Shown one piece after another: positions 1-35,103 of a stretch of 64,000 nt of DNA. Each line of letters begins with the position of its first letter. Position 1 is the first letter of the stretch. The position numbers and the translations under genes were made by a program. The notes under the pieces were generated by a model. That model made no database searches and was not told the DNA's origin. It worked only from the letters and a program-made list of their open reading frames with translations. Origin of the DNA: Cliona cf. orientalis (taxonomy: Eukaryota; Porifera; Demospongiae; Clionaida; Clionaidae); the NCBI GenBank assembly GCA_963930775.1, contig OZ005689.1, forward strand, positions 20,837,262-20,901,261, in the 5' to 3' direction.

Positions 1-3000
1 GCTGCGAGGCGGACTGCTGTAGCTGGGAGGGCGGAGCTGGAGCTGGCTGCGAGGCGGACTGCTTTAGCTGGGAGGGCGGAGCTGGAGCTGGCTGCGAGGC
101 GGACAGCTGTAGCTGGGAGGGCGGAGCTGGCTGCGACGCGGACTGCTGTAGCTGGGAGGGCGGAGCTGGCTGCGAGGCGGACTGCTGTAGCTGGGAGGGC
201 GGAGCTGGAGCTGGCTGCGAGGCGGACTGCTGTAGCTGGGAGGGCGGAGCTGGAGCTGGCTGCGAGGCGGACTGCTGTAGCTGGGAGGGCGGAGCTGGAG
301 CTGGCTGCGAGGCGGACTGCTGTAGCTGGGAGGGCGGAGCTGGCTGCGAGGCGGACTGCTGTAGCTGGGAGGGCGGAGCTGGCTGCGAGGCGGACTGCTG
401 TAGCTGGGAGGGCGGAGCTGGAGCTGGCTGCGAGGCGGACTGCTGTAGCTGGGAGGGCGGAGCTGGAGCTGGCTGCGAGGCGGACTGCTTTAGCTGGGAG
501 GGCGGAGCTGGAGCTGGCTGCGAGGCGGACTGCTGTAGCTGGGAGGGCGGAGCTGGAGCTGGCTGCGAGGCGGACTGCTGTAGCTGGGAGGGCGGAGCTG
601 GAGCTGGCTGCGAGGCGGACTGCTTTAGCTGGGAGGGCGGAGCTGGAGCTGGCTGCGAAGCGGACAGCTGGAGCTGGCTGCGAGGCGGACTGCTGTAGCT
701 GGGAGGGCGGAGCTGGAGCTGGCTGCGAGGCGGACTGCTTTAGCTGGGAGGGCGGAGCTGGAGCTGGCTGCGAAGCGGACAGCTGGAGCTGGCTGCGAGG
801 CGGACTGCTGTAGCTGGGAGGGCGGAGCTGGAGCTGGCTGCGAGGCGGACAGCTGGAGCTGGCTGCGAGGCGGACTGCTTTAGCTGGGAGGGCGGAGCTG
901 GCTGCGAGGCGGACTGCTTTAGCTGGGAGGGCGGAGCTGGAGCTGGCTGCGAGGTGGACTGCTGGAGCTGGCTGCGAGGCGGACTGCTGTAGCTGGGAGG
1001 GCGGAGCTGGAGCTGGCTGCGAGGCGGACTGCTGTAGCTGGGAGGGCGGAGCTGGCTGCGAGGCGGACTGCTTTAGCTGGGAGGGCGGAGCTGGAGCTGG
1101 CTGCGAGGCGGACTGCTGTAGCTGGGAGGGCGGAGCTGGAGCTGGCTGCGAGGCGGACAGCTGGAGCTGGCTGCGAGGCGGACTGCTTTAGCTGGGAGGG
1201 CGGAGCTGGAGCTGGCTGCGAGGCGGACAGCTGTAGCTGGGAGTGCGGAGCTGGCTGCGACGCGGACTGCTGTAGCTGGGAGGGCGGAGCTGGCTGCGAG
1301 GCGGACTGCTGTAGCTGGGAGGGCGGAGCTGGAGCTGGCTGCGAGGCGGACTGCTGTAGCTGGGAGGGCGGAGCTGGAGCTGGCTGCGAGGCGGACAGCT
1401 GGAGCTGGCTGCGAGGCGGACTGCTTTAGCTGGGAGGGCGGAGCTGGAGCTGGCTGCGAGGCGGACAGCTGTAGCTGGGAGTGCGGAGCTGGCTGCGACG
1501 CGGACTGCTGTAGCTGGGAGGGCGGAGCTGGCTGCGACGCGGACTGCTGTAGCTGGGAGGGCGGAGCTGGCTGCGAGGCGGACTGCTTTAGCTGGGAGGG
1601 CGGAGCTGGAGCTGGCTGCGAGGCGGACTGCTGTAGCTGGGAGGGCGGAGCTGGAGCTGGCTGCGAGGCGGACTGCTGTAGCTGGGAGGGCGGAGCTGGA
1701 GCTGGCTGCGAGGCGGACTGCTGTAGCTGGGAGGGCGGAGCTGGCTGCGAGGCGGACTGCTGTAGCTGGGAGGGCGGAGCTGGCTGCGAGGCGGACTGCT
1801 GTAGCTGGGAGGGCGGAGCTGGCTGCGAGGCGGACTGCTGTAGCTGGGAGGGCGGAGCTGGCTGCGAGGCGGACTGCTGTAGCTGGGAGGGCGGAGCTGG
1901 AGCTGGCTGCGAGGCGGACAGCTGGAGCTGGCTGCGAGGCGGACTGCTGTAGCTGGGAGGGCGGAGCTGGAGCTGGCTGCGAGGCGGACTGCTTTAGCTG
2001 GGAGGGCGGAGCTGGAGCTGGCTGCGAGGCGGACTGCTGTAGCTGGGAGGGCGGAGCTGGAGCTGGCTGCGAGGCGGACTGCTTTAGCTGGGAGGGCGGA
2101 GCTGGAGCTGGCTGCGAGGCGGACAGCTGTAGCTGGGAGGGCGGAGCTGGCTGCGACGCGGACTGCTGTAGCTGGGAGGGCGGAGCTGGCTGCGAGGCGG
2201 ACTGCTGTAGCTGGGAGGGCGGAGCTGGAGCTGGCTGCGAGGCGGACAGCTGGAGCTGGCTGCGAGGCGGACTGCTGTAGCTGGGAGGGCGGAGCTGGAG
2301 CTGGCTGCGAGGCGGACTGCTTTAGCTGGGAGGGCGGAGCTGGAGCTGGCTGCGAAGCGGACAGCTGGAGCTGGCTGCGAGGCGGACTGCTGTAGCTGGG
2401 AGGGCGGAGCTGGAGCTGGCTGCGAGGCGGACTGCTTTAGCTGGGAGGGCGGAGCTGGAGCTGGCTGCGAAGCGGACAGCTGGAGCTGGCTGCGAGGCAG
2501 ACTGCTGTAGCTGGGAGGGCGGAGCTGGAGCTGGCTGCGAGGCGGAGAGCTGGAGCTGGCTGCGAGGCGGACTGCTGTAGCTGGGAGGGCGGAGCTGGCT
2601 GCGAGGCGGACTGCTTTAGCTGGGAGGGCGGAGCTGGAGCTGGCTGCGAGGCGGACTGCTGTAGCTGGGAGGGCGGAGCTGGAGCTGGCTGCGAGGCGGA
2701 CAGCTGGAGCTGGCTGCGAGGCGGACTGCTGTAGCTGGGAGGGCGGAGCTGGAGCTGGCTGCGAGGCGGACTGCTGTAGCTGGGAGGGCGGAGCTGGAGC
2801 TGGCTGCGAGGCGGACTGCTGTAGCTGGGAGGGCGGAGCTGGCTGCGAGGCGGACTGCTGTAGCTGGGAGGGCGGAGCTGGAGCTGGCTGCGAGGCGGAC
2901 AGCTGGAGCTGGCTGCGAGGCGGACTGCTGTAGCTGGGAGGGCGGAGCTGGAGCTGGCTGCGAGGCGGACAGCTGGAGCTGGCTGCGAGGCGGACTGCTG

Positions 3001-5420
3001 TAGCTGGGAGGGCGGAGCTGGAGCTGGCTGCGAGGCGGAGAGCTGGAGCTGGCTGCGAGGCGGACTGCTGTAGCTGGGAGGGCGGAGCTGGCTGCGAGGC
3101 GGACTGCTTTAGCTGGGAGGGCGGAGCTGGCTGCGAGGCGGACTGCTTTAGCTGGGAGGGCGGAGCTGGAGCTGGCTGCGAGGTGGACTGCTGGAGCTGG
3201 CTGCGAGGCGGACTGCTGTAGCTGGGAGGGCGGAGCTGGAGCTGGCTGCGAGGCGGACTGCTGTAGCTGGGAGGGCGGAGCTGGCTGCGAGGCGGACTGC
3301 TTTAGCTGGGAGGGCGGAGCTGGCTGCGAGGCGGACTGCTTTAGCTGGGAGGGCGGAGCTGGAGCTGGCTGCGAGGTGGACTGCTGGAGCTGGCTGCGAG
3401 GCGGACTGCTGTAGCTGGGAGGGCGGAGCTGGCTGCGACGCGGACTGCTGTAGCTGGGAGGGCGGAGCTGGCTGCGAGGCGGACTGCTTTAGCTGGGAGG
3501 GCGGAGCTGGAGCTGGCTGCGAGGCGGACTGCTGTAGCTGGGAGGGCGGAGCTGGAGCTGGCTGCGAGGCGGACTGCTGTAGCTGGGAGGGCGGAGCTGG
3601 AGCTGGCTGCGAGGCGGACTGCTGTAGCTGGGAGGGCGGAGCTGGCTGCGAGGCGGACTGCTGTAGCTGGGAGGGCGGAGCTGGCTGCGAGGCGGACTGC
3701 TGTAGCTGGGAGGGCGGAGCTGGAGCTGGCTGCGAGGCGGACAGCTGGAGCTGGCTGCGAGGCGGACTGCTGTAGCTGGGAGGGCGGAGCTGGAGCTGGC
3801 TGCGAGGCGGACTGCTTTAGCTGGGAGGGCGGAACTGGAGCTGGCTGCGAGGCGGACTGCTGTAGCTGGGAGGGCGGAGCTGGAGCTGGCTGCGAGGCGG
3901 ACTGCTTTAGCTGGGAGGGCGGAGCTGGAGCTGGCTGCGAGGCGGACAGCTGTAGCTGGGAGGGCGGAGCTGGCTGCGACGCGGACTGCTGTAGCTGGGA
4001 GGGCGGAGCTGGCTGCGAGGCGGACTGCTGTAGCTGGGAGGGCGGAGCTGGAGCTGGCTGCGAGGCGGACTGCTGTAGCTGGGAGGGCGGAGCTGGAGCT
4101 GGCTGCGAGGCGGACTGCTGTAGCTGGGAGGGCGGAGCTGGCTGCGAGGCGGACTGCTGTAGCTGGGAGGGCGGAGCTGGAGCTGGCTGCGAGGCGGACT
4201 GCTGTAGCTGGGAGGGCGGAGCTGGAGCTGGCTGCGAGGCGGACTGCTGTAGCTGGGAGGGCGGAGCTGGCTGCGAGGCGGACTGCTGTAGCTGGGAGGG
4301 CGGAGCTGGCTGCGAGGCGGACTGCTGTAGCTGGGAGGGCGGAGCTGGAGCTGGCTGCGAGGCGGACTGCTGTAGCTGGGAGGGCGGAGCTGGAGCTGGC
4401 TGCGAGGCGGACTGCTTTAGCTGGGAGGGCGGAGCTGGAGCTGGCTGCGAGGCGGACTGCTGTAGCTGGGAGGGCGGAGCTGGAGCTGGCTGCGAGGCGG
4501 ACTGCTTTAGCTGGGAGGGCGGAGCTGGAGCTGGCTGCGAGGCGGACAGCTGTAGCTGGGAGGGCGGAGCTGGCTGCGACGCGGACTGCTGTAGCTGGGA
4601 GGGCGGAGCTGGCTGCGAGGCGGACTGCTGTAGCTGGGAGGGCGGAGCTGGAGCTGGCTGCGAGGCGGACTGCTGTAGCTGGGAGGGCGGAGCTGGAGCT
4701 GGCTGCGAGGCGGACTGCTGTAGCTGGGAGGGCGGAGCTGGCTGCGAGGCGGACTGCTGTAGCTGGGAGGGCGGAGCTGGAGCTGGCTGCGAGGCGGACT
4801 GCTGTAGCTGGGAGGGCGGAGCTGGAGCTGGCTGCGAGGCGGACTGCTGTAGCTGGGAGGGCGGAGCTGGCTGCGAGGCGGACTGCTGTAGCTGGGAGGG
4901 CGGAGCTGGCTGCGAGGCGGACTGCTGTAGCTGGGAGGGCGGAGCTGGAGCTGGCTGCGAGGCGGACTGCTGTAGCTGGGAGGGCGGAGCTGGAGCTGGC
5001 TGCGAGGCGGACAGCTGTAGCTGGGAGGGCGGAGCTGGAGCTGGCTGCGAGGCGGACTGCTGTAGCTGGGAGGGCGGAGCTGGAGCTGGCTGCGACGCGG
5101 ACTGCTGTAGCTGGGAGGGCGGAGCTGGAGCTGGCTGCGAGGCGGACTGCTGTAGCTGGGAGGGGGGAGCTGGCTGCGAGGCGGACTGCTGTAGCTTGGA
5201 GGCCGGAGGTGGAGCTGGCTGCAAGGCGGACTGCTGTAGCTGGGAGGGCGGAGCTGGAGCTGACTGTAAGGTGGACAGCTTTAGCTGGGAGGGCGGAGCT
5301 GGAGCTGGCTGCAAGGCGGACTGCTTTAGCTGGGAGGGCGGAGCTGGAGCTGACTGTACAGTGGACTGCTGTAGCTGGGAGGGCGGAGCTGGCTGCAAAG
5401 TGGACTGCTGTATGGTACCC
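1..5420. repeat. GC-rich minisatellite, 45/39/25-bp units
   Basis: Over 100 tandem units run from the left window edge to about 5420, so the array probably continues outside. Three unit lengths recur: 45 bp (ending GGAGCTGGAGCTG), 39 bp (one GAGCTG fewer) and 25 bp (GCGGACAGCTGGAGCTG form). The 45 and 39 units are multiples of three and the 25 unit is not. Blocks of units repeat as groups, which suggests higher-order duplication. Units right of about 5180 are more diverged and grade into unique coding sequence. Confidence 0.97.
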
Positions 5421-10329: not shown

Positions 10330-10337
10330 TTAATCTT
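10330..10337. repeat. Left target-site duplication of the 13.5-kb element
   Basis: TTAATCTT, identical to the 8-mer at 23852-23859 immediately outside the right end. Confidence 0.85.
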
Positions 10338-10432
10338 CAGGGTGGTCCAGGATTGCCATAAACTGTCAAAGTTGTACTGAGTATATCCCAGGAATCAAGG
10401 ATACCCTTAGGCCTTCCTATATGTCCCGTGTT
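10338..10432 (+). repeat. Left terminal inverted repeat
   Basis: Begins CAGGGTGGTCCAGGATTGCC. Pairs with the complement of 23757-23851 over about 95 bp with scattered mismatches. Its inner part is also the first unit of the 100-bp tandem repeat. Confidence 0.85.
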
Positions 10433-10655
10433 CAACTAGTTAAGTGTTGATGTCAGTATCATAAGAGTAAGAGTACTTAGTATATCCCAGGAATCAAGGA
10501 TACCCTCAGGCCTTCCTATATGTCCCGTGTTCAACTACTTGAGTGTTGATGTCAGTATCATAAGAGTAAGAGTACTTAGTATATCCCAGGAATCAAGGAT
10601 ACCCTTAGGCCTTCCTATACGTCCCACTACTTGAGTGTTGATGTCAGTATCAGAA
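10378..10655. repeat. About three 100-bp tandem units, left subterminal
   Basis: Units begin at about 10380, 10478 and 10578 with AGTATATCCCAGGAATCAAG and include CCTTCCTATATGTCCCGTG and GATGTCAGTATCATAAGAG. The third is shortened. Confidence 0.9.
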
Positions 10656-10745
10656 GAGTAAGAGTGATTTCAGTGGAATGCCTTGATGGGATGATTTGGG
10701 GGGGATCTCTTGTGGACAAAAGATAGTAACTCTAAGGAGGCAGAA

Positions 10746-11548
10746 TTCAAGGTCCGAGTTGACCCCTCTGTCCTGTCAACCGGCTACCAGGGCTGTTCGC
10801 TGCCGGCATGCATCACTGCTGTGAGTCCCAGGTCCGAGTTGGCCCTTCTGTCCCGGACAACCCGGGACAGTCCCGGGTTGTCCTGCTGCCGGCATGCATC
10901 GCTGCTGTGAGTCCCAGGTCCGAGTTGGCCCTTCTGTCCCGGACAACCCGGGACAGTCCCGGGTTGTCCTGTTGCCGGCATGCATCACTGCTGTGAGTCC
11001 CAGGTCCGAGTTGGCCCTTCTGTCCCGGACAACCCGGGACAGTCCCGGGTTGTCCTGCTGCCGGCATGCATCTCTGCTGTGAGTCCCAGGTCCGAGTTGG
11101 CCCTTCTGTCCCGGACAACCCGGGACAGTCCCGGGTTGTCCTGCTGCCGGCATGCATCACTGCTGTGAGTCCCAGGTCCGAGTTGGCCCTTCTGTCCCGG
11201 ACAACCCGGGACGGGTTGTCCTGCTGCCGGCATGCATCTCTGCTGTGAGTCCCAGGTCCGAGTTGGCCCTTCTGTCCCGGACAACCCGGGACAGTCCCGG
11301 GTTGTCCTGCTGCCGGCATGCATCTCTGCTGTGAGTCCCAGGTCCGAGTTGGCCCTACTGTCCCGGACAACCCGGGACAGTCCCGGGTTGTCCTGCTGCC
11401 GGCATGCATCTCTGCTGTGAGTCCCAGGTCCGAGTTGGCCCTTCTGTCCCGGACAACCCGGGACAGTCCCGGGTTGTCCTGCTGCCGGCATGCATCACTG
11501 TTGTGAGTCCCACGTCCGAGTTGTCCTTTCTGTCCCGGACAACCCTTG
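10746..11548. repeat. 86-bp minisatellite, about 9 units
   Basis: Each unit contains GGCATGCATC, GTCCGAGTTGGCCCTTCTG and the palindrome CCCGGGACAGTCCCGGG. One unit (about 11152-11231) has a 6-bp deletion, and the ends are degenerate. Because 86 is not a multiple of three, the long ORFs in several frames here are repeat artefacts. Confidence 0.95.
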
Positions 11549-11569
11549 TTCCGCTGCCATCCTGTACTA

Positions 11570-12041
11570 GTGATTATGAATATTAATGTATAACAGGAAA
11601 AAAAAATTTGTAATCAACAGTAATAATCACGAAGGTAATGTCAAATCAAAATATCAGATCATCAGTGACTGAAGTATGATGATTACATGAGGAGGTGAAG
11701 TACGATGAGTGAGTGATGAGGGAGAAATGTAGCTATGATGAGTATATGATGAGTAAGTATGATGAGTACGAGAGTAAGTGAACAACAATGACTTCGTGAG
11801 TGATTAAAGAATACAATACAGTACTGAGTTAGCACTCCATCACTGGCTGTTTCCTTGGACTTGTCCTCCGAGGGGAAGCAGTGGGATGGTCAGGACTTGT
11901 TCTCGGTATTTTGGTAGGGGTTCTATGCTCAGAAGTGCTGGCTGGTCTTTTCATATTGACAGGAGAACTTCTGCATACCAAAACATGTTCAATCAATACC
12001 ATCCCAAAACGGCAATCCTGTATGGTATTGTCTAATTTGAC
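11570..12041. other. 3' flank of the DUF3987 gene
   Basis: Contains short irregular GATGAGTA repeats around 11690-11790. No convincing coding sequence. Confidence 0.5.
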
Positions 12042-15000
12042 TTACGGTTTAATTTCCTTTTGGGCAAGAGTTTTGCTGTACTGGATCAGTGACATGTTAT
12101 ACTTATTCAGCTTCCTTGAAAGCTCCAACTTTTGCTCCGTAACGGATGGTATTCCTACCTTTTCAAATTCATACTGCTGCAAGTGAATCACATTTTAAGT
12201 ACTGTCAATGAAGCGAGGGTGGGTATCAACATAATAATTATTATTTTCCTGAGATAGCTATGTTTGTTTTTAGTTGCTAATGGCCCTACATGCACTTGTA
12301 CATGCATTCTCTCCCTAGGCCTATGAAGTACTTACACGCACTTCTAAACATGGAAAACTTACAATAGATGTTCCTTTCGTACACCCCACTTCCATCACTT
12401 TCCCAAGACCTTCAGTTTCGAGCTGATAGAATGCCCTTATGGCGCCATCTTTGTTACCTCGCTTTCTAAATTTTTTCTGTGCAAGCAATGGAGATAAGTA
12501 TAGGATTTTCCCGGGCAGATGTAAGCAGAACGCAGCTGTAGCATCGTCATCACTCAGATTTTCTGTCATACCATCACCTATAAACAAAAGCAGTTTGTTC
12601 AGTTCGTAAGTCAACATTTAGTATTAAATTTTAAACTAATCACATAAACGTTTGCGATCAGCTTGCTAAAATCCAACACCCATGTAACTGCTGCAAGAGT
12701 AGTTCAAACAATATTATGTGCAAGGCCGTCCACGAGAAAACCAAGCACATTGTGCAATGAAAATCACCAAGGGTGCAATGCCTCAATGCATGACTAAAGA
12801 ACTAAAGAAAAAAGTTAAAAAACGAGGCAACAAAGATGGCACCATAAGGGCAATTATGTACTGTATGGGTGTGATACAATAAACTTTACTTATTGTGTTG
12901 TTACTTATGTTGAGTTGCTTTTGTGTTGCGTTTTGTAATAGGCTAGGAACAGCTGGTTAGGATTAGTGTTTTCATGTGTATGGCTATGTGTTAATAGGTG
13001 TTAATTGGGGCGAGCCTGAGCGAGCCCCACATAAACGGTACAGCTGTGCGCGAATCCTATATATATATTATTATGGTACGTCCGTCACACGAAATTTATG
13101 GTGGATGCATATGGCTCTATGGACATAACCGCGAAGTATTCTTGTGCGCATTCTCATGCCTGGGCGACCAGCCACTCTAATTTAGAGTGATGTCCAGTGT
13201 TGCCTTCAACTGTCTAGGATAGACTTAGGATGTCCGGGATAATTCACAGAGCCTATAGACCCAAGATTCATAGGAAGTACTAGGCTAATCCTGGGCCTCC
13301 TTCACATGCATGTATTCACCCTAAAGTTAGAGGATCCTACTAGGGAGAACATACCTACATGCCTGGAGGATCCCCATAGATAGTCCCAGGATCATCTTAG
13401 CTCACATCCGCGGAAGGACCCCAATAGCAAGTCCCAGGATTGTCCTGGGACACACCACATAATACATGCACCTATAGCTCACATCCGGAGGATCCCACTA
13501 CGCAGTCCCTGGGACACCCTACATATTACCTAGACCTCACGTCCGGAGGATCCCACTAGGAAGTCCCAGGATCCTCCTGGGACACCCCACATATTACACC
13601 TATAGCACGCGTCCGGAGGATCCCACTAGGAAGTCCCAGGATCCTCCTGGGACACCCCACATATTACATCTATAGCACACGTCCAGAGGATCCTCCTGGG
13701 ATACCCCACATATTACACCTCTAGCACGTGTCCGGAGGATCCCACTAGGAAGTCCCAGGATCCTCCTGGGACACCCCACATATTACATCTATAGCATACG
13801 TCCAGAGGATACCACTAGGAAGTCCCAGGATCCTCCCGGGACACCCTACATATTACATCTATAGCACACGTCCAGAGGATCCTCCTGGGATACCCCACAT
13901 ATTACACCTCTAGCACGTGTCCGGAGGATCCCACTAGGAAGTCCCAGGATCCTCCTGGGACACCCCACATATTACATCTATAGCATACGTCCAGAGGATA
14001 CCACTAGGAAGTCCCAGGATCCTCCCGGGACACCCTACATATTACATCTATAGCACACGTCCAGAGGATCCTCCTGGGATACCCCACATATTACACCTCT
14101 AGCACGTGTCCGGAGGATCCCACTAGGAAGTCCCAGGATCCTCCTGGGACACCCCACATATTACATCTATAGCAAACGTCCGGAGGATCCCACTAGGAAG
14201 TCCCAGGATCCTCCTGGGACACCCCACATATTACATCTATAGCACACGTCCGGAGGATCCCACTAGGAAGTCCCAGGATCCTCCTGGGACACCCCACATA
14301 TTACATCTATAGCACACGTCCGGAGGATCCCACTAGGAAGTCCCAGGATCCTCCTGGGACACCCCACATATTACATCTATAGCACACGTCCGGAGGATCC
14401 CACTAGGAAGTCCCAGGATCCTCCTGGGACACCCCACATATTACATCTATAGCACACGTCCGGAGGATCCCACTAGGAAGTTCCAGGATCTTCTTGGGAT
14501 ACCTCACATACTATCTATGTGTGATCACATTATGAAGGCTCTGGATAGCAAGACTTCGTCGCATACAACCCAGGACTGATATCCAAAGAATTCCACATAC
14601 CGGTAATACTCTCACATACAACCTCTATGTGACAGCCCCATCTCGCTCAAATAGCTACTACCCACTGCTGGAGTGAAGTGTTGGGATCATACCAAGATAA
14701 TCATCACTCGATGATCATGTAAGTATATTGCCGGGATAAATAATACTGTAACTACAGCTATAGTTAATTCAGTCATAGGGGGTTAATAAATATATGATCT
14801 TGCCGGCTGCTGAGTAAGTGTTGATTGGGAAAAATGGTTAAATAGGTGATCATCTGTGTTGTAGCAAATTCTAATTACGATAAATGTTGACTCATTGTGG
14901 CTGGTTTTTCCTGGGTGATCTTCGTAGTTGCCTGCAGTGTATTACTTTAACATCACAGTGCTAGTATACTAATACACCATTACCATGGATGGTTGCCGTC

Positions 15001-18000
15001 TTCAAATGCAGCTACGTATTCTGGGTATGGCACACTATATAAGTGAATGGTCATGTTTTTATTTCATTTTATATTTCCATTATAAAGTTTATTTGTTATG
15101 ATGATGGATGCCATCTCAGGAAATATGCAAGAAATCCATTACGACAAGGCTTAACACCAACAGCTACTTTGTTGTCATCACTAGAAATAGTGGTTGACAA
15201 AATGCACATTAAGGGGCATGTCGACCCATGGTGCTTAAGGACGTGTGATGCCCGGAAGTTTAAAGCTCTAGAACAGGTATACTGATCAGTCAAGCATAAT
15301 AATTATCGTATGTAAACATAATCTATTATTATTATTATTAGGTTGATACGCAAGTTTGCGAGCAAACCTTTTCATGGCTGTCAAGGTATGCCAAAATCAC
15401 CAGGCACATGAAACAAGAGCACTTCCTCTTTTTTATTATCTACTTATGTGACCTACACAATAGACGGCTAGAGAAAAAGCTTCATTAATTATTTGAATAT
15501 TATGATAAGATTACTGTATACCACAAATTATTATTATGTCAGAAATTCTTGGAAACATACAGATACTATAATAAATAAATGTATTTTATAGGACATCCCA
15601 GGACCATCCTGGGATGTCCATAGGGAATCCTCCGGAATACAGATAACTGGAATGTAAGGACATCCCAGGACTGTCCTGGGACGTCTACAGGGAATCCTCC
15701 GGAATACAGATAGCTGGAACGTAAGGACATCCCAGGACGGTCCTGGGATGTATACAGGGAATTCTCCGGACCACAGGTAACTGGAATGTATAAGCTAGGA
15801 CATCCCAGGACCATTCTCGGATGTCTACAGGGAATCCTCTGGAATACAGATAGCAAGGACATCCCAGGACTATCCAGGGATGTACATAGGGAATCCTGCA
15901 GACTATAGGTAACAGGATGTCCCAGGAGCATCCTGGAATGTCTACATGCAGGGAATCCTCCGGAACACAGGTACATGTACATGTAACCGGAATGTAAGGA
16001 TATCCTAGGACCGTCCTGGGACAGTCATCCCAGGAGTGTCCTGAAACTTCAGATCAGCAGCCAGAGTATAATATGATCATCCCAGGACAGTCTTAGGATG
16101 TACAAAGGAAGTAATTAGTGGCATAAAGAATATCCCAGACAGATCCTGATACAGGGTACTGAGGACTATCTTGAGACCATCCTAGACAGTTGAAGGCAAC
16201 ACTGGACATGAGTGCTAATTTAACGAACTCTAAATTTACACTCGTGTAGCAGTCGCGATGAGGAGGAAAGAGAAAGCGAGAGAGAAAGAAACTACGCAAG
16301 GGCAGCGAGACGTGCAGCTCCAGTCCATAGGCATAGTTGTACAGAGGCAACACTGCACGAAGGCGTTATCCTGAGTACAGAGTGAGGCTAGGCTATACCT
16401 AAGGCCGGCACATGAGCTCGTGATAGACAGGTCTGTCTCTCTCACGTCAGGATCAGCTAAAGAAAGGGAGGCTGGGCTAACTAATTGACTTCGTTTGTGA
16501 AAGTACAGAAAGTATAAGCTAAATCTTTACTCAGCAGGCAAACTGCGCGATGATGCTGTGAGCTCGGCTCCAACACTGAACGAAGGCATTATTCTGAGTA
16601 GAGAGTAAGGCTGGGCTATACCTAAGGCACATGAGCTCGTGATAGACAGGCCACGGGGCCTGTCCCTCTTAATACGACTTCATGTCAGAGTCAGCTAAAG
16701 AAAGGGAGGCCAGGCTAGCTAGTTGGCTTCGTTTGCGAAAAGCTAAAGCTATCCAAGGTCGGCAAACTGTGTGATGATGCTGTGAGCTCAGGCTCGCCCC
16801 AAACAGGCCCTGCATGTCACTAGTATTATTAAGTTTGAGTTTTGTGACACTGAGGATAGAAGGACCTTTTGTTCAAAGGGGGGCCCCAGAGCCTCGCTCT
16901 AGCTAGTTAATAATCTTGGTTTTGTTATACTTGAATAATCTTTGTACTTTCTTTGTTAGTATTCTATATAAGCCAGCATTTTTAGTTGCATTGTGTCTAC
17001 CGTTCAATCTCAAAAAAAAATTTAAGAAGAAACCACAAATACTTCCTGTTTGCATCACAATTGGGCTTGGGCTATTTGTGCATCATTAATCGATGGAAAA
17101 TGTAGCACGATGCAAGCTTAGTGGTGGAACATATCACATGAACTATAGATCTCAACAATCATGCAGATGTGCATACATCTGTACATTTCATTAAAACATA
17201 CCAGAACTACATCTCTGCAACGCTTCCTCAATGCTTCCTTTGCCTGCAATCACGGACGTCTGCTGGCAGGACACCTTGGCGAAGTTGATTGCAGCAGCAA
17301 TTGAATCTTCACTCACAACATCTGGGACATCACCATCCTTGCCAAGATGAAAAAGCACATGGAGCACAGGAGCAATCCGTAACACTTGGCTTCGGCTTTT
17401 GCTGAGCATACCTGTATAAATCAAGTGACAATAGAACTCCCAACTAAGGTGTCAAGTGATGTAAATGTATAGTAGCTCAATATACCGTATTTCCTCGAAA
17501 TCTCGCCGCGGCGAGATTTTATTTCAAGGCTCCGTTTGGTGCGGCGACAATTCGAGGGCGGCTAGATTTCGAGGGCGGCGTCTACAGAGATCGATGCGCA
17601 TGCACGTACAGAGCTTCAATAATAATGTATGCACGTAAAATGTCCGTGCGCATACGGAAATTGCTGTCGATCCCTTACCATGCGGCGAGATTTCGAGGGC
17701 GGCGTTTATTGGGACGAGTTAGTAGATAGATGCGGCGACATTTCGAGGGCGGCGAGATTTCGAGGTGCGGCGAGATTTCGAGGAAATACGGTACATGTGT
17801 ACATGTACTTGCACAACTTATACATGCACTTGCCTGCCATCAACTCATCCATCCCTGCAAGCGTTCTGAGTCCTTCCTGAACATGGTCATAATACTCCCC
17901 AAAAGCTGTGCTATCCCTAGCAATCCTGAATATCTTGACAGGTAGTGAGGTCTGGGTCGATGGACATGACTTCCACTGATCAGCAAGTAGTTTAGCTACA

Positions 18001-19385
18001 CGTATATAGACACAGAAATAAAAAGACATGGAACACATTTCATGTATAAAGCAGTTGCTTTTACCGATATCACGCTGAAAGCTTTTATCCACTTCTTTGA
18101 GAGACGAAAACTTTCCAAATAGGGGAGACGGAAAAAGCCACAAGAATCGGTGGGATAAACCCTTCTCGGCGTTGCTAGGCAACTCGATTAGTGATCTTGC
18201 TACACCAGGCTGTGTAAAACCTCCAACTGTTAGCCTCGTAAAAGGCATGGCAAAATTGGTGTCACCCGTCACTGGATTAAGATAAAAGAAAGTTGGTATC
18301 TATGTACATGTACAGTAAGCCGAGAATCAGATATAAAGTACATGTTCACATTGCATTCAAAGACATCATGCAGGTACACAAGCAATAGTTGTACTATGGT
18401 TTTCTAGGGTGTATGGATATTGTACCCTGAGTGTGTTATAATGGTATTCCGAGGGCGAACTATATCACCCATGTGACATGGGATTTATCACATACTAGTT
18501 GCCATAGTAACATAGTATATAGTCTAATACACCCTAGGGTGTATGAGACTACATGGGTTTTGTACTAGCTGTTTTTCCTTTGAAGTATGGCTTTATCATA
18601 GTACAAGGGTTTTTGACTAGCTGTTTTTCCTTTGAATTAAGTATGGCTTCATCATAGTACAAATCCTAATACTCTAACAATAAAGCAGGAAATAAGCAGG
18701 TTACTCACGAATTATATATATACCTGTGTCTCGTCGCCAAGGATGGCCGTTGAATAGCTGTAGAAAGAGCGAAAATTCATGCGAGTCGCTGAGTCCCCTT
18801 CCACGGTAGAGGTTGATTTGGGTCAGAAATGAAGCCAGTTCATCGTAGAGCCCTAACAACCTTGCAGAATTTTGACTCATTAACACCCCCATCTTCTCAA
18901 ATGTAGCATCATCAATAGCCCACACTGGGTCGTTCTCATCTTGCTTGCAAAGCTCTCTGATGTACTGAAGGAGACTGTACAGATGCTTGAATAACGTCGA
19001 TTTTCCACTCCCTGTCGGCATGCACACTGTCATCCACAGCAGGACAGGTTCGCACCAATCGGTTTCAGGCACTTGAACAGAAGCTGGTGACAATACAAAG
19101 CTCCCCAGTATCAGGTAGCCACTGAGCACAGCAGTAGGTGGGAGGTTTAGGGCAGTGCCTATCTTGTGAAAACCCTGTACAATGTTTACAGCACGGGAAT
19201 AGCTTTAACTTTTTTAATGATAAAGACATGGCTAGCTAAGTGATAAAATGTCGCTCATAGCTAAAATTAATTTCATGACTCACCTCTTTCAAAGCAGGCG
19301 GATACAAACTCCAGTCTATATCAGTTTCCCAGGCCTTCTCTAAGCGCAGCCGAGTTTCTTTTAGCTTCGCCCACGATTCTGCCAT
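12042..19385 (-). CDS. DUF3987-type P-loop ATPase, seven exons
   Basis: Exons: 19385-19284, 19174-18724, 18271-18065, 17995-17834, 17411-17202, 12577-12363, 12176-12042. All junctions keep frame and give 493 aa. Splice sites are GT-AG except a GC donor after exon 4. The P-loop PTGSGKST is at residues 87-94, a Walker B-like RLLGLYDE at 139-146, and GRGLSDSHE and GHPWRRDTG follow. TVGGFTQPGVARSLIE in exon 3 is also typical of DUF3987, a primase-helicase-related ATPase family known mainly from bacterial plasmids and phages. The start MAESWAKLKETR is the first Met of the frame, 275 bp from the divergent transposase start. The 4.6-kb intron between exons 5 and 6 carries nested elements. Inside a transposon, a role as accessory helicase or ATPase in transposition is inference. 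Confidence 0.85.
12740..12878 (+). pseudogene. Plus-strand fragment resembling DUF3987 exon 6
   Basis: A short open stretch ends KKKVKKRGNKDGTIRAIMY and then stops at TAA within an AATAAA. The part RGNKDG-x-IRA matches RGNKDGAIRA in exon 6 of the minus-strand ATPase gene, but it lies on the opposite strand inside that gene's large intron. It is probably a 3' end fragment of a related element copy. Confidence 0.45.
13400..14510. repeat. 70-bp minisatellite, left subterminal of nested element
   Basis: About 15 units, each with CCGGAGGATCCCACTAGGAA, the near-palindrome TCCCAGGATCCTCCTGGGA and CACATATTACATCTATAGC. Some units are shortened to a half form, and three-unit groups are repeated. Units to the left of 13400 are more degenerate. 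Confidence 0.95.
15088..15488 (+). pseudogene. KDZ transposase, last two exons only
   Basis: Exon 15088-15276 reads ICYDDGCHLRKYA, then DKMHIKGHVDPWC. A GT-AG intron (15277-15341) leads to exon 15342-15488 with VDTQVCEQTFSWLSRYAKI and a stop. These align one-to-one with exons 8 and 9 of the full gene at 19661-22861, including the Asp pair in YDDGCH and the Glu in VCEQ. Upstream exons are absent within the nested element. Confidence 0.85.
15585..16190. repeat. About 67-bp degenerate minisatellite, right subterminal of nested element
   Basis: Six or so units contain GGACATCCCAGGACCATCCT with GGGATGTCCA, then GGGAATCCTCCGGAATACAG. The CCCAGGA/TCCTGGG palindrome theme is the same as in the left array. 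Confidence 0.9.
16340..16745. repeat. Two-copy 230-bp duplication
   Basis: GCACGAAGGCGTTATCCTGA through GGCTATACCTAAGG and AGCTAAAGAAAGGGAGGC occurs twice, starting at about 16340 and 16568. The repeat lies in the right half of the MITE that hosts the KDZ insertion. Confidence 0.85.
17485..17791. mobile_element. TA-flanked MITE in DUF3987 intron 4
   Basis: Starts CCGTATTTCCTCGAAATCTC and ends with the complement, flanked by TA on both sides. The interior has more copies of GGCGAGATTTCGAGG. The terminal pattern and TA duplication fit a Tc1/mariner-type MITE. Confidence 0.85.
18540..18665. repeat. Two-unit 65-bp repeat in DUF3987 intron 2
   Basis: CTAGCTGTTTTTCCTTTGAA through ATCATAGTACAA is repeated once. 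Confidence 0.8.
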
Positions 19386-19660
19386 GACTTTGTAGAATAG
19401 CGGCTTTTAGGAGTGCACGCAAGGCGAGTGTACATGAGCGTGAGCGTGGAGCGCGAGCACGTTTTTTTTTTTCAAGCATGCGCGTGCATGTATAGCCTCG
19501 TCCCAGGCCACTCCCACTTTTTTCCAGGCCAGGCCACGTGAACGTGTTCAGTGTGTTGGGCGTGGTTTAGTACTCGACGCTAGCTCAGGTGAGTAAACGA
19601 GCGCGAGAACAGAGACGGTGGTGCGAAAAAAGCTGGAAGTCGAGCAGCACATCCGCGATC
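19386..19660. promoter_or_regulatory. Divergent promoter region between ATPase and transposase genes
   Basis: 275 bp separate the two opposing ATG codons. The stretch is CpG-rich compared with its surroundings and contains GAGCGTGAGCG-type repeats. No TATA box is obvious. Just upstream of the transposase ATG, CTCAGGTGAGTAA looks like a strong splice donor, so a 5' non-coding exon is possible. Shared control of both genes is inference from position. Confidence 0.5.
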
Positions 19661-22600
19661 ATGTGGCAAGACATCGGCGACATAGTTCCAAATCCATCGA
19701 CTTTCAGAAGGTTATTGTTCGCGGCAAGTCAGTTACCAAAGGCGACTCCAGGATACTGCAGAATCGTGACCGACTTCGCTTTTGATCAGTGTGAAAAAAA
19801 ACCCAAGCCTGAGGATACGCTACTTCTTCTAGAGAACATGGAGTTTCTCAGCGAGCAAGCATTCCTTACTGACAAAGAACTTGTAAAGGACTTGTTCGGT
19901 TACAAAGGATTCAAAGCTCACCCGCTTGGAGTAGTTTTAGTCCCAACTAATAACACTTGCAAGTCATGCCAGGGAGACCTGAAGATCAGAGGAGACAGAC
20001 CCAGTTACCTCACATTATACACAGATAATTTGGGTACTGTGCCAGCGACGTTATTTCGGAAGTACTGCAGCAACAGCCACAGGTACACTTTTATATGTAC
20101 TGTACCCATTCTAATTAATGCGCCTGAAAAAAATAATTACGAGTGCTGGGTGCCGCGCTATTAGAGCGTGGAAATTGGCGTTTGCGACAAGAATTTGTAC
20201 ACGAAAGTATAGGGACGCGTGGGTGGGCGCATTTAAATAGAGCGTGAAAATTGCACTTCAGGCCTAGGTGGCGCATCTATTAGAGAGGCGCGTTAATTAG
20301 ATCGGCTACGGTAAATCAGCTAGGACCTGCATGGTAAGCTAAAACTGATTTTTGTAATAATTTTACACACAGAATTTCCTGTTGAAACCTAAAAATTTAT
20401 GTAGTATCTATATACAGGGGGTGTACATTCACACAACATTACGGTTTTCACACCTTCAATGAAACGCAAAATCAAGAGCTCATTGCAGACAGTGACTGGG
20501 ACAAGCTGCCATATTTTGTGTCAACAAGCAAGACGGGCTTTTCTTTGTCATTGTTGGAGAAGTTTGATTGTGAGCTACTTCTGGGACAATTGTCGTACAA
20601 GCAAAAATGCGACATTTACAATTGTTTCCATAAGTATGACACCACTCAAAAAAAAACAACATCCACTCTTCCATCCTATTATGATGAGTGCACTCTCTTT
20701 GAGTCAGAAAACACTCTTCAGCCTTCACTACAGTACGGCTAACTCCTATCCAAGCATGGCATGCCACACCATAACTCATTGTCTAATGTTTATGCATACA
20801 GGGACTCGAGTACATCAAACAACCTACTTGAGAGAGCATGCTTGGATCGAAGAAGACTCGAAGAAGGTCATCTCAAATACACCATCCTCAGAATGTACCA
20901 AAGGTATCCAACGCACTTTCCAAAGTGGTCCATTTCGTCCTCTTTAACAGCAGCATTTGAGACCGTTACACCCAAATTTTACCAAGCATTTACATCGCGC
21001 TATGCAGGTATGTTCAGGTTACTTCCTTGAATGTACATCCCTTTAACAACATGCATAAATAGCTGTATCAAAATTAATTATGGTGCCATGTAGCTAAATA
21101 CTATTATCATGTGTTACCTTCATAGACCATCGGTGCAACTACCCTGGGTGTGGTCAAGTTCTAGTCCTAGATGGCAACCTCAAAAATAGATGGGATGTAT
21201 GTGCAGCTATCGAAGCAGGCTATATCCAGTATCCAAGCTTACCCGATTCGGTGATCAAGACGGGTTGCCAACTTTCACCACTCCAGACATCTAGTTATTG
21301 CTATTGTCATGCTCCAAGAGTAAGTAAGAGGTGCTCCACATCTGGCACAGGTGAAGAAGAATCAGAAACTCCATCTTCACAGGATGGTGTGGTACATGTG
21401 ATAGTAGGGAAGAAGACAACCAGGAACATCACCTACTATAAGGTACACATGATACATACACGTAACTGCGGTGACATCATGTGCTCCAAGTTCTTCCTTT
21501 CATACAGGTTGCTTGGATCGGCACCCAAAGTAATTTGTCTTGGGAACCAGCATCTTCACTTCCCAGTTCACTTGTGAAAGAGTTTGAGGACGGCATAAAA
21601 TTGTCGATGGAGACAGTACAGTATGGTGTTATCACTCATACTTTGATGAACTCACCCAACCCAATTGCAACAATTGAAGCACCTCCTGAGAAACGACCGA
21701 GAATTGTCCCGCAAAGCTTCAAACCAGGGTATGGCAAAGTATTCCTTGGTATACTTCCATGTCTAAACTAATCTGTGTGTTACAGGGTTTTCGAAGATAC
21801 CCGAGAAGACTCTACCCCTTTGACTTGCAATACTGAAAAAGGCAAAGGATTCCATCTACATCGCCGTAGTGCAGGTATATGCTATCACAACTAAGCATAG
21901 GCAAGAAAAACAAATAATAGCTACCAATACATCATGTCATTATCTACAGGAATTGAATGTATACTATTAGCCATCTCTAGTCTCTTATTATCGTAAATTA
22001 CCTATACAAATTGTCAAGTCAAGATTGTGGCTTACTGTTATTTACATGTGGCGGGACAGTGTTTACAGTGTGATTTAGTACTGTACAATGATTTGCACTT
22101 TCTGTTAGGCTACAATCTCGTAAGGGTAGACTGTGAATGTTGCAGTATGTTCATGCACTATAATGTTGGTATGTTCATGTTGCTAAACTTGTTTTTAACT
22201 GCAGGTGTATTGGCTGGGATGTGGCCATGTGGTGTAGTAATCATGCTTACTGAGTTATTCACTGCTGAAAGTTTATCACAAGTGTATGCAGCCATACATG
22301 AACTTTTCACTAACCACTCCACCATTACAGAGAATCTCAGTGAGTAACAGTTGTGTTGAAAATTATAACACCTACATGTACAGACTGAACTACATTTTAC
22401 TACAAGAATTGCATCCACTCAGAAATCATCTGTTACGACGATGGATGTCACCTAAAAAGATATGCCAATAACGCCACTAGAAAGGATGTTACACCACAGT
22501 CATTGAAAATAGCAAACACAAATATTGTCGTTGACAAACTTCACTTCGCTGGGCACACAGATAAGTGGTGTCGGGAACACTGCGACCCAAGATCTTTCAA

Positions 22601-22861
22601 GGAGTTGGATAATGTACATATATATTGTGTATTGGGTATACATGTATAACTGCAATATTTATTTTAATAGACATTTATTGTAAACCTGTGCAGGTCGATA
22701 CAGAGGTGTGTGAACAGCACTTCTCTTGGCTTTCAAGATATGCTAGGATGACCAGACGCATGAGCCGCAATGTTTTCATTTTCTTTCTTTTGCACATTGT
22801 GGACATGCATAACAGGCGGGAAGAATGCAAGCTGAGGAGAGCAGGATTCTTCAAGTCTTAA
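19661..22861 (+). CDS. KDZ-type transposase with chromodomain-like segment, nine exons
   Basis: Exons: 19661-20082, 20418-20732, 20802-21007, 21126-21442, 21508-21728, 21786-21874, 22205-22339, 22423-22613, 22694-22861. All introns are GT-AG and all junctions keep frame, giving 687 aa. A zinc-cluster-like set is C100-x2-C103, C136 and C143 with FTQHYG after it. A second is C318-x4-C323 and C340 around LDGNLKNRWDVC. Residues about 402-440 (ITYYKVAWIG, then LSWEP) resemble a chromodomain, split by intron 4. The C-terminal core has YDDGCH (573-578), DKLHFAGHTDKWC and VCEQHFSWLSRY (637-648), the usual KDZ pattern. D330, D574/D575 and E639 are candidate catalytic acids; that assignment is inference. 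The start is the first ATG of the open frame. Confidence 0.88.
20100..20311. mobile_element. TA-flanked MITE in KDZ intron 1
   Basis: The left end CTGTACCCATTCTAATTAAT pairs with the complement of the right end (CCGTAGCCGATCTAATTAAC), with TA on each side. Noncoding and diverged. Confidence 0.7.
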
Positions 22862-23089
22862 AGATAATACTGCTTGTGTCCTGGTTACCGTACTAAACAA
22901 TTGATTTATATACTATTCAAGATGTGCAATAATGTTAATGTAAAGTATGCAATAATTTAAAATGATGCTATTATAAAGACACACAATGTTGTTAAGTATA
23001 CAATAATTTTGTATACAGGGAAATTATGACCTAACATTTGACATACAGCACTAGTGGTACCGTATGGTAACTTGGGACCCAGACACCCA

Positions 23090-23730
23090 GGACCTTGAAC
23101 TACATGCAAGGGGGGGGGGGGGTTGATGGAGTATCCTGGGATGTCCTAAGTTGCCCTATGGTAACTTAGGACGCCCAGGACCTGGGACTTCAAGGCTGGG
23201 GAAGGTTTGGGGGAATTCCAAATTTGACAGTTGACCTGGACACCCAGGACCTTGGACTTCAGGCTGGGGGGGGGGGGGGGGGGGGGGGGGTTGAGGGAGT
23301 ATCCTGGGATGTCCTAAGTTGCCCTATGGTAACTTAGGATGCCTGGACCTGGGACTTCAAGGCTGGGGAAGGTTGGGGGGGGGATTCCTGGGATGTTCTA
23401 AGTTGACCTAGACACCCAGGACCTTGGACTTCAGGCTGGGGGGTTGAGGGAGTATCCTGGGATGTCCTAAGTTGCCCTATGGTAACTTAGGATGCCTGGA
23501 CCTGGGACTTCAAGGCTGGGGAAGGTTGGGGGGAATTCCTGGGATGTCCTAAGTTGACCTAGACACCCAGGACCTTGGACTTCAGGCTGGGGGGGTTGAG
23601 GGAGTATCCTGGGATGTCCTAAGTTGCCCTATGGTAACTTAGGATGCCTGTACCTGGGACTTCAAGGCTGGGGAAGATTGGGGGGAATTCCTGGGATGTC
23701 ACAAGTTGACATAATGGTAACTTGGGACAC
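23090..23730. repeat. About 176-bp tandem repeat with G runs, right subterminal
   Basis: About four units contain GTATCCTGGGATGTCCTAAG, TTGCCCTATGGTAACTTAGG and CAAGGCTGGGGAAGG. Homopolymer G runs reach about 30 bases near 23261-23290. Confidence 0.9.
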
Positions 23731-23756
23731 TAGCAAGGACCTTCATACCATGTAAT

Positions 23757-23851
23757 TGAACATGGGACATAGGATAGCCTAGGAGTATCCTTGATTCCCG
23801 GGATATACTAAGTTGAAGTTTGACAATTTATGGCAATCCTGGACAGTAGTG
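23757..23851 (-). repeat. Right terminal inverted repeat
   Basis: Complement begins CACTACTGTCCAGGATTGCC and matches 10338-10432. Followed directly by TTAATCTT. Confidence 0.85.
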
Positions 23852-24146
23852 TTAATCTTGCCGAAGGATCCTTATCTCTGGGTGGGAAACTTCCCTGTGC
23901 GTGTACAAACCTATGTGAATCATTTAAGGGGGTATATCCAAAGACATGAATCTACAATCCCTGCTAAGGCTTGTGCACAATAGTGCTTCATTCTGTTATG
24001 ATCATGACACTGTGTGGATGATATTATGATAAATTTACCATGGTGAAACTAGCATCACTTATTGGCTTCTAAAAATATAGGTACATGCACTATGTTAATT
24101 TCATCATAATTATTATTGCTGTTGAAGGGATGCGAGTTTCATAATA

Positions 24147-30929: not shown

Positions 30930-31080
30930 TGTAACAGCGTGGCTAGCATGAGTTAGATTATAATTGAGATTATTGCACATGCGCAGTACAGCAACACATT
31001 ACATCATTGCATACAGTACATACGTGCATATAATAGTTATTATTCAGTCTAAGTTCATGCTCAAAGTTCACTATATTACA
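30930..31080 (-). repeat. 3' LTR (left copy)
   Basis: TGTAACAGCG...ATATTACA; matches 37587-37741 with few differences. A purine-rich GGGGCGGAGGTGA lies just inside on the minus strand and may be the polypurine tract. Confidence 0.92.
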
Positions 31081-32541
31081 TCACCTCCGCCCCAGTTAAG
31101 CTCGTCCCGAGCTGACACTATTGAAGTCTCTGGGGGGTCAATCCGAGCCCTCAAGGGATAATGAGAGGACTGGTGATTTCGTACGGCACCACCTGATTCG
31201 GTTTCAGTTGCACTCGTATCATCAATGGCAGGAACCAGGTCTTCGGAATCGGAATCAGGTTCAGAGTCACTCTGATCGGAAGATATTTCATTCTCCTGAC
31301 TTTGTGTGTCATCTGGTTGCTGCTTCGGATCTTCGAGTAACCTTTGGACCCAACTGGGCACTCTTCCGGAGCTCTTCCTCCTGCCTCCATACCAGTAAAC
31401 TCCAATGGGCAGTGCACTAGGGCACGGGCACACCCTACTTTGATGTATCTGTAGCGGCCCTTCCTCAGGAAAGTACTACAGTCACATCTGGATCATCACG
31501 GCTGACGATGCGGAAGGGGCCTCTCCAAGGTCGCGATAGTTTCCGTAGCTTTCCCATCTCTTCTTAAGGGAAACGAACAAAAGTCCAGTCACCAACTCGC
31601 ATGTCCATGATCTTCGATCTCTTATCGTACTGTTTCTTGTAGCGGCTTTGAGCAGCTTTGATGCTTTTGGTCGCCAGCTCCCGGGCAGTAGAGAGTGACA
31701 AAACTAACTCTTCTCGATAGTCTGTGAGGTCGGTACACTCACTGGCTTGTGGGGTAGTAGTGCTGCTTCCGTGGGTGATTTCAAGTCGATCCCAAAGAGT
31801 AGAAACGATGGCTTCTCCTTGGTGGATTCGTGGGGTGTGTTTCGATAGGCCCACAGCACACCAGACAGGAAACAATCCCACTGTTGACCAAATTTGGCAC
31901 AGGTCTTGCGAAGCATAGACTTGAGTGTACGGTTCAGCCTCTCCACGATGCCATTGCACTGCGGGTGGTAAGCCGTGGTGTTTAGCTTGGTGACGCTGAG
32001 TAATTTGCAGACATCTTGCATGAGGTGTGACAGTAGATTCGTACCTCGATCAGACAGCAGGGCGTCCGGTACTCCAAATAGTGGCACTATCTCTTCAGCT
32101 AATAAGCGAGCAATCCTAGCGGTCTTTTGATCAGGGGCTGGAAACACCATTGGCCACTTCATCAAGAAATCCTGGAACACAATGACATACATACTTGTTC
32201 CCTCCCTCCGTCACTGGAAGCTCCATGTTGTCGACTCCCATTATCTGGAAAGGTTTCTGAACAGGGATGGGATGAAGAGGAGGCCGCTGTACTCGTCCTG
32301 AACCGGATACCATCACACACTCAGCACAATTCTTACAGAATGCGATACAGTCACGATAGAGCATCTCCCACCACCAATGTCGGCTCAAGGTGGTGAACAG
32401 TCGATGCCCGAGAAGTGTCCAGCCATCAACCCTCCATGCGCTTCCTGCATGATTTCTCTCGAAGGTGAATTGGAACAACGGCTCTTTTCTGGTTACCACT
32501 CTTGTGGTCCAGAAAATATAGGATACCACCAACCAGAGCAA
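31071..32541 (-). pseudogene. gypsy integrase and pol C terminus
   Basis: Zinc-binding part: CIAFCKNCAECV. Core acids: Asp in MGVDNMELP, Asp in LLSDRGTNLL, Glu in NGIVERLNRTLK. HPQCNGIVERLNR is typical of Ty3/gypsy. Frames shift at about 32190 and 31700. An acidic tail (SSDQSDSEPDSDSEDLVPA) ends close to the 3' LTR. Confidence 0.88.
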
Positions 32542-33172
32542 ACTGAGGTGCTTGAGCAGCTATCTTCTTGGCCTGGGGGCTATCTTCTGGCAATAGTCCA
32601 TCTTCCAGGTAACGAATCATTCCGAGCAAAGTCTGATCTTTCCTCTGCTCTCCACTGAAATCTCCTGAGCCTGTCTCCAGGGGTGGGGCTTCCAAAAGCT
32701 GAGAAATATCCGCGTAGCAACTGACTTGGCTTACTTGCGTCTCAGGCTCCTCTCCTTGAGTGGTTACCGGGTTACGTGAGAGAGCATCAGCTTTACCGTT
32801 CTCTCTACCAGGTTGATACACAATCGTCACTTTTCCAATCCCACTGGAGAAGACTTTGAGCCACCATCGGGCATGCTTTCCGCTGGGACTAGGAGTTTCT
32901 AGCACTGCACGTACTGCCGAATGATCCGTGATCACTGTGACTTCATGGCTGTAGAGATAGGCATAAAAATGTTGGATGGCCCAGACAACTGCTAGAGTTT
33001 CTAGTTCCGTGATTGCACAGTTCTTTTCTGGGGCTGAGAGAGCGCGGCTAGCATATGCTACAGGATGGAGCGACTGATCAGACTGCTTCTGCGACAAGAG
33101 TGCTCCTAAATCTCTCACACTAGCATCCGTTTCAAGTACGAAAGGGCGATCAAAACTGCAATACAGGAGCAT
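32426..33172 (-). pseudogene. gypsy RNase H
   Basis: LETDASVRDLGALLSQ, ELETLAVVWAIQHF and ITDHSAVRAVL give the Asp-Glu-Asp positions of RNase H, and GRENGKADALSRNPV ends the domain. It continues to about 32426, where the frame shifts into integrase. Confidence 0.88.
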
Positions 33173-35095: not shown

Positions 35096-35103
35096 TAATA
35101 TAA

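Follow-up and report, generated by a model that had tools for sequence, protein, structure and literature searches.

Cut-and-paste elements of eukaryotes are usually thought to need one transposase and at most a DNA-binding partner. Among KDZ elements, the available part of PMC12730594 describes Zisupton with inverted repeats and 8-base-pair (bp) duplications, a Dileera with 8-bp duplications, Kyakuja with 7-bp duplications and no inverted repeats, and fungal elements carrying accessory TET/JBP genes, which were proposed to aid persistence. KDZ transposases can exceed 1300 amino acids, and the KDZ elements of brown algae are giant and contain nested insertions, according to the available part of PMC12477816. 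PMC5862659, available in part, predicts that DUF3987 is a helicase family serving the replication of mobile elements, since it replaces known helicases beside primases. KDZ transposons as such are known, and so are their 8-bp duplications, their accessory genes, their giant size and the insertions nested in them. Here, we report on a DNA transposon in a 64,000-nucleotide stretch of the genome of the sponge Cliona cf. orientalis (the window; C1:20837262-20901261, C1 being a 37.5-megabase [Mb] contig of a genome that totals 217 Mb and comprises 149 contigs), in which a KDZ transposase gene stands head-to-head with a predicted DUF3987 ATPase gene. We read it, with a probability of roughly 55%, as an autonomous KDZ transposon whose DUF3987 protein would be a helicase-like motor working with the transposase.

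The element extends from position 10338 of the window, where its left end reads CAGGGTGGTCCAGG, to position 23851 and is flanked by a perfect 8-bp target-site duplication, TTAATCTT, at 10330..10337 and 23852..23859. Its terminal inverted repeats, which start with CAGGGTGGTCCAGGATTGCC on the left (10338..10432, plus strand) and read CACTACTGTCCAGGATTGCC inwards on the right (23757..23851, minus strand), share a 76-bp core (10345-10420 and 23769-23844) that is 87% complementary, and the alignment from both ends runs about 95 bp inward. A preliminary description of the window had given exactly these boundaries, with imperfect repeats of about 95 bp and the perfect duplication. Inside the ends lie subterminal tandem repeats, on the left with a period of 99 (three copies, 10374..10665) and in an array with a period of 86 (about nine copies, 10799..11545) and on the right with periods of 70 to 168 (23110..23727). 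When the genome was searched for other copies with these ends, as the description had proposed, one was found 3.8 Mb away (copy 2, C1:24641185-24651243), with exactly the same two ends and different flanks. The duplication of copy 2 is AGGTACCA, and one extra A separates the left duplication from the left end. The proposed comparison with an empty site at TTAATCTT yielded none in this genome for the 13.5-kilobase insertion, since a search with the two flanks joined led back to their own two places and nowhere else. Where the two copies were compared, 8 of 3,684 coding and 18 of 4,391 non-coding positions are different (Fisher p = 0.17; the copies are too similar for a selection test), and so small a number of coding differences between copies with identical ends points to recent transposition. 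No premature stop was found in copy 2 across the exons compared, one KDZ exon with 12 extra bases being masked. The window element is a real mobile DNA element of an animal genome.

Copy 2 lacks two pieces of the window copy, namely, 13185-16214 together with one 8-bp repeat and 17485-17791 together with a TA. The first is a nested KDZ-type element of 3,030 bp (plus strand), a deletion derivative whose duplication, CTAATTTA, stands at 13177..13184 and 16215-16222 in the window and is single in copy 2, which preserves the empty site. This nested element has ends with TGTCCAGTGTTGCC, much like those of the surrounding element, and carries KDZ C-terminal exons (51-62% identity); no DUF3987 match above chance was seen in it. 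The second is an insertion of about 307 bp with a TA target and the ends CCGTATTTCC, located inside an intron of the ATPase gene. As about 3.3 of the 13.5 kilobases (kb) are therefore two later insertions, the ancestral element measured about 10.1 kb; the previously given size of 13.5 kb is correct for the span and inflated as a measure of the element.

The predicted KDZ transposase gene (19661..22861, plus strand) comprises nine exons and encodes a full open frame of 687 amino acids, in agreement with the preliminary gene model. It matches the Pfam KDZ family (PF18758) with an E value of 7.9e-11 and 42.5 bits, over the cut-off of 26.6. The motifs VLDGN (D330), CYDDxCH (D574/D575) and DTExCE (E636/E639), presumably the catalytic D, D and E blocks of KDZ transposases, are invariant in three aligned relatives. 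A cysteine cluster (CxC) N-terminal to the KDZ domain scores 14.9 bits in the window protein, under the cut-off of 26.9, and lies above it in the relatives P0031 (41.2) and L014 (37.3). A search for homologues of the whole KDZ protein found none (best 8000 candidates scored), probably owing to the word choice of the search, and one with the catalytic core gave 2 matches among 139 candidates. An additional domain was first noticed in a Pfam scan of P0031, in the stretch that separates the first catalytic block from the second; in the window protein it corresponds to amino acids ~404-448, between D330 and D574, and is encoded at 21392..21591 (plus strand), where the intron 21443-21507 splits it. 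The chromodomain model (PF00385, cut-off 25.1 bits) is exceeded by the family members c3 (28.9) and c4 (31.6) and missed by P0031 (23.3), and a profile of four of the sequences matches HP1 in the PDB at 8.3e-7. This predicted HP1-type chromodomain between the catalytic residues of a KDZ transposase appears as a new feature here.

The predicted DUF3987 P-loop ATPase gene (11829..19385, minus strand) comprises eight exons (19385-19284, 19174-18724, 18271-18065, 17995-17834, 17411-17202, 12577-12363, 12176-12046 and 11970-11829) and encodes 539 amino acids. The last three exons (12577-11829) lie on the far side of the nested 3-kb element, and by eye they look similar to the C terminus of two Dysidea avara homologues of 534-536 amino acids. 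Both genes had been described before as splicing to full open frames; this stands for the transposase, whereas the 493 residues given for the DUF3987 protein are replaced by the longer model reaching 11829. A first model of 380 amino acids matched Pfam DUF3987 (PF13148) with an E value of 4.4e-33 and 115.4 bits against a cut-off of 27, so that hidden Markov model searches, suggested earlier as a check, place both proteins over the cut-offs of their families. The exon at 18724..19174 (minus strand) holds the motifs MPTGSGKS and LLGLYDEL, which we take to be Walker A and Walker B. Introns of the two predicted genes are of the GT-AG type, except for one GC-AG. The two start codons are separated by 275 bp (19386..19660), precisely the spacing claimed before, and this gap presumably acts as a divergent promoter.

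To define loci, the genome was searched with Pfam DUF3987; with 112 of 133 candidates scored, this gave at least 134 exon-level matches at E values of 10 or less and, as a lower bound, 56 loci. KDZ genes were sought with Pfam, with the window protein, with the KDZ protein of a second clade and in the flanks of the loci. At 43 of the 56 loci, a KDZ gene lies within 15 kb upstream in head-to-head arrangement; one further locus, beside a second DUF3987 locus, has KDZ in another arrangement, and 12 have none within 15 kb. Two of these 12 (C8:9094348 and C1:10672233) are head-to-head with a different, transposase-like gene, nothing was found in about 4.5 kb upstream of three others (C1:18190243, C2:3047056 and C1:33135269), and the remaining seven are weak matches of 17-36 bits whose upstream sequence was not read. 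Among random points on C1, 1.1% have a KDZ gene head-to-head within 15 kb, which for the 36 pairs known before the second-clade search gives a binomial p of ~5e-57, a value that overstates the case because the loci are not independent and copies inherit their layout by transposition. A chance neighborhood or an assembly artifact has next to no probability left: the pairs occur on C1, C18, C14, C4 and further contigs, the window element lies inside a 37.5-Mb contig, and the second copy together with the genome-wide pairing led us to reject this explanation at the sequence level. Capture of a host DUF3987 gene by a KDZ element was likewise rejected for this genome, where most DUF3987 loci are KDZ-paired. 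Nor did this genome show the arrangement named beforehand as speaking against a partnership, i.e., copies without DUF3987 while the same gene sits at a single-copy locus. The data support the view that two-gene elements form a family in this animal, with DUF3987 as a recurrent partner.

Better evidence of a partnership than the binomial p comes from the correlation of distances. At 12 of the 18 loci at which both proteins were read, loci that are further apart in the N-terminal region of KDZ are also further apart in DUF3987 (r = 0.92 between the two sets of pairwise distances, p = 0.0001); L015, L016, L020, L023 and L025 were dropped for thin KDZ coverage, and c5 was dropped because it is nearly the same as c4. 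Leaving out one more near-identical locus gave an r of 0.94 (11 loci). The correlation was also found inside the window clade (r = 0.67, p = 0.0009, 7 loci without the near-duplicate) and inside the second clade (r = 0.63, p = 0.04, 4 loci). Between the window element and c3, c4 and c5, synonymous sites are saturated, and non-synonymous differences amount to 0.31-0.37 for DUF3987 and 0.36-0.41 for KDZ. As the latter values lie far below saturation, both genes are under purifying selection, which is no less strict on DUF3987 than on KDZ. The recurrent back-to-back pairing in dozens of related copies suggests that both proteins move the element together.

Indications of what the ATPase may do come from its relatives. 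A search of 5.8 billion proteins yielded 30 matches (best 8000 candidates scored), and the named organisms among them were Dysidea avara (46 and 50% identity) and Tubulanus polymorphus (37%), which we take to be a sponge and a nemertean, respectively. A phage-family scan covered five ATPase relatives, not the window protein; their best match was phrog_2373, 'DNA helicase' (2.7e-24 for the Tubulanus protein, 1.1e-17 for the Dysidea protein P0002 and down to 1.2e-5 for a second-clade protein), followed for the Tubulanus protein by a primase family at 3.2e-7. DUF3987 had been characterized as closer to primase-helicases; Pfam showed no primase domain in the proteins scanned. No convincing match among solved structures was obtained for the ATPase in PDB sequence searches. 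A viral origin was considered and rejected: two scans of viral contigs with ATPase and transposase alignments found the patterns in 26 and 70 stretches, and no relative was confirmed.

In Tn7 (TnsC), Mu (MuB) and IS21 (IstB), a DDE enzyme and an ATPase are combined in one element. The DUF3987 protein might, in the same manner, be a target-selection regulator that coats target DNA with ATP and recruits the transposase, for which a DDE transposase with an ATPase partner would be the expected anatomy. The changes to Walker A in some lineages would be easier to square with an ATP-gated switch than with a processive helicase, and DUF3987 loci crowd on one contig, with 43 of the 56 on C1, which makes up 17% of the genome (p = 3e-22), mostly between 17.8 and 36.0 Mb, though terminal-motif matches do not (9 of 60). 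Nevertheless, we regard such a regulator as unlikely, given that a profile of 29 ATPase family members found no TnsC, MuB or IstB chain among 10 PDB sequences up to an E value of 10, that the best phage family is named a helicase and that the chromodomain would already offer chromatin targeting. The analogy to Tn7 and Mu drawn at the outset thus received no support at the level of sequence. Because of the phrog_2373 match, the published prediction (PMC5862659) and the absence of TnsC, MuB and IstB by sequence, we prefer, short of proof, a helicase-like motor over a target selector. With respect to contig placement, KDZ loci without DUF3987 are also enriched on C1 (20 of 49; p = 9e-5), and large elements may be retained there, possibly in a region that is of low recombination or sex linked.

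Several observations weigh against a helicase-like motor acting jointly with the transposase. Walker A is changed to TKS for GKS in c3 and in Dysidea P0002 and to KGQKKT/S in another clade, which weakens a processive helicase and keeps a regulator alive, and residue 144, beside the Walker B acids, is Y in the window protein and N in copy 2. Pfam scans of the 380-residue first model, Dysidea P0001 and Tubulanus P0007 did not reveal a primase domain. The chromodomain of the window protein scores 19.9 bits, under the Pfam cut-off of 25.1, and judged by eye, just one of the three HP1 cage aromatics, the tryptophan, is kept. Furthermore, DUF3987 is missing within 15 kb of nine places of two KDZ clades (three further weak matches being left out) and of 42 Pfam-only KDZ loci, so that KDZ elements as such seem able to transpose without DUF3987 in cis. 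The preliminary description had called DUF3987 a fixed partner of KDZ; the partnership is recurrent, as judged by the head-to-head pairs and the co-divergence, whereas these 9 and 42 loci rule out that KDZ always occurs with DUF3987.

A captured accessory gene would account for the nine related KDZ places without DUF3987 within 15 kb. It would stand outside the transposition machinery and aid persistence of the element by anti-silencing or replication, as TET/JBP genes may do in fungal KDZ elements, and both the accessory genes of the latter and the giant size of the brown-algal elements fit it, as far as the available parts of the two sources go (PMC12730594, PMC12477816). At 2 of the 56 loci, DUF3987 lies beside another transposase-like gene, as a mobile cassette would. 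A captured gene is, however, difficult to reconcile with a constant placement, head-to-head at 43 of the 44 DUF3987 loci with KDZ within 15 kb, and with a co-divergence that spans a range with saturated synonymous sites, and we therefore give this explanation little credence.

If the DUF3987 protein is a helicase-like motor, the following course is the most likely. The transposase would bind the inverted repeats, with the subterminal arrays as probable further binding sites, excise the element by presumed cut-and-paste chemistry and insert it elsewhere with an 8-bp duplication. The chromodomain inside its catalytic region would probably guide it to particular kinds of chromatin. The shared divergent control region would also drive expression of the DUF3987 protein, which would open or remodel DNA in the transposition complex or help to copy the element. 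A stronger version, which we offer only tentatively, is a two-component eukaryotic system in which a chromodomain-bearing KDZ transposase depends on a dedicated DUF3987 motor, with a divergent pair that has been kept very long and at least once been exchanged with an unrelated transposase-like gene. The related ATPase proteins recorded from Dysidea avara and Tubulanus polymorphus would fit such a long pairing.

The two DUF3987 genes with a non-KDZ partner (L050, C8:9089649-9094348, and L057, C1:10673700-10678700) are head-to-head with genes that are 48-74% alike, depending on the piece. In the L050 gene, an OTU protease domain scores above its Pfam cut-off and an MSL2-type CXC stretch below. 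One piece of the partner looks DDE-like by eye (DNCCSW, LDLFHAVKRI and NEALH), and this piece has 22 matches genome-wide. DUF3987 may have passed from one type of transposase to another. In one subclade (L017, L051 [L019] and L016 [L026]), a third open frame lies between KDZ and DUF3987; these frames are 33-51% alike, occupy the strand of DUF3987 in L017 and L051 and the opposite strand in L016 and gave no Pfam match in L017, L019 and L051.

Further members of the family were compared at their ends. The members c4 (on C18) and c5 (on C1) are 97-99% alike over long stretches and have the ends CATCCATGTCTAG and CAGGGTAGTCCAG; c5 is flanked by a perfect 8-bp duplication, CGAGTTAG, and none is visible for c4. 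The inverted repeats of c3, which start with TGTCCAGTATTGCC, are 55 bp long and 94.5% alike, with no clear call on a duplication. The 8-bp duplications of the window element (TTAATCTT), copy 2 (AGGTACCA, with the extra base), c5 (CGAGTTAG) and the nested element (CTAATTTA) are as in Zisupton and Dileera. The motif TGTCCAGKATTGCC occurs 60 times in the genome and not once in a reversed control. Of six inverted TGTCCAGKATTGCC pairs of 113-135 bp, three have a perfect 8-bp duplication by eye, one matches at seven of eight positions, and two have none. These pairs are short relatives that share the end motif, not exact derivatives.

Elsewhere in the window, a frame of 435 amino acids at 28475-29782 matches Pfam DDE_Tnp_1_7 (9.5e-88) and presumably belongs to a transposase of the piggyBac type. 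A row of open frames at 31071-36503 reads, by eye, like a Gypsy-type retrotransposon polyprotein with breaks. Positions 1-5392 are covered by a long 45-bp tandem array, which is open in several frames and joined to a minus-strand open frame starting near 6127.

As to novelty, the earlier statement that no report of DUF3987 as a fixed partner of KDZ in an animal element was known agrees with our search, in which no open-licence PMC paper joined KDZ and DUF3987 or described either in sponges; the one literature match for DUF3987 and eukaryotic transposons concerns Bacteroidetes, and Repbase or subscription journals may hold a prior description. Neither a DUF3987 partner nor an internal chromodomain was seen in the KDZ descriptions compared, in the parts of them available (PMC12730594, PMC12477816). 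With the KDZ group, the window element shares the KDZ domain and a multi-exon transposase; inverted repeats and 8-bp duplications link it to Zisupton and 8-bp duplications to a Dileera, as described in PMC12730594, and with the brown-algal elements it shares nested insertions. It differs from Zisupton, Dileera and Kyakuja in the head-to-head DUF3987 gene, the internal chromodomain and the shorter transposase of 687 amino acids. Fungal KDZ elements with a TET/JBP dioxygenase are alike in having a second, non-transposase gene; here, this gene encodes a predicted ATPase, the host is an animal, and the head-to-head arrangement is conserved. The DUF3987 proteins of prokaryotic mobile elements and phages belong to the same Pfam family, and relatives of the window protein match phrog_2373, whereas here no fused primase was seen and the partner is a DDE transposase in an animal. 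Academ and Helitron are eukaryotic elements that bear a helicase. The window element would resemble them in encoding a helicase-type motor and differs in transposase type and helicase family. A helicase-like ATPase that co-diverges with its transposase, present in two near-identical copies in one genome, makes the use of a dedicated motor in eukaryotic DDE transposition directly testable, and the chromodomain adds a testable hypothesis on targeting that may bear on the crowding of DUF3987 elements on one contig. Tn7, Mu and IS21 are alike in joining a DDE enzyme with an ATPase, although no sequence relation between the ATPases was found; if the two-component system is real, it would be a eukaryotic counterpart of Tn7 or Mu in logic, not in descent.

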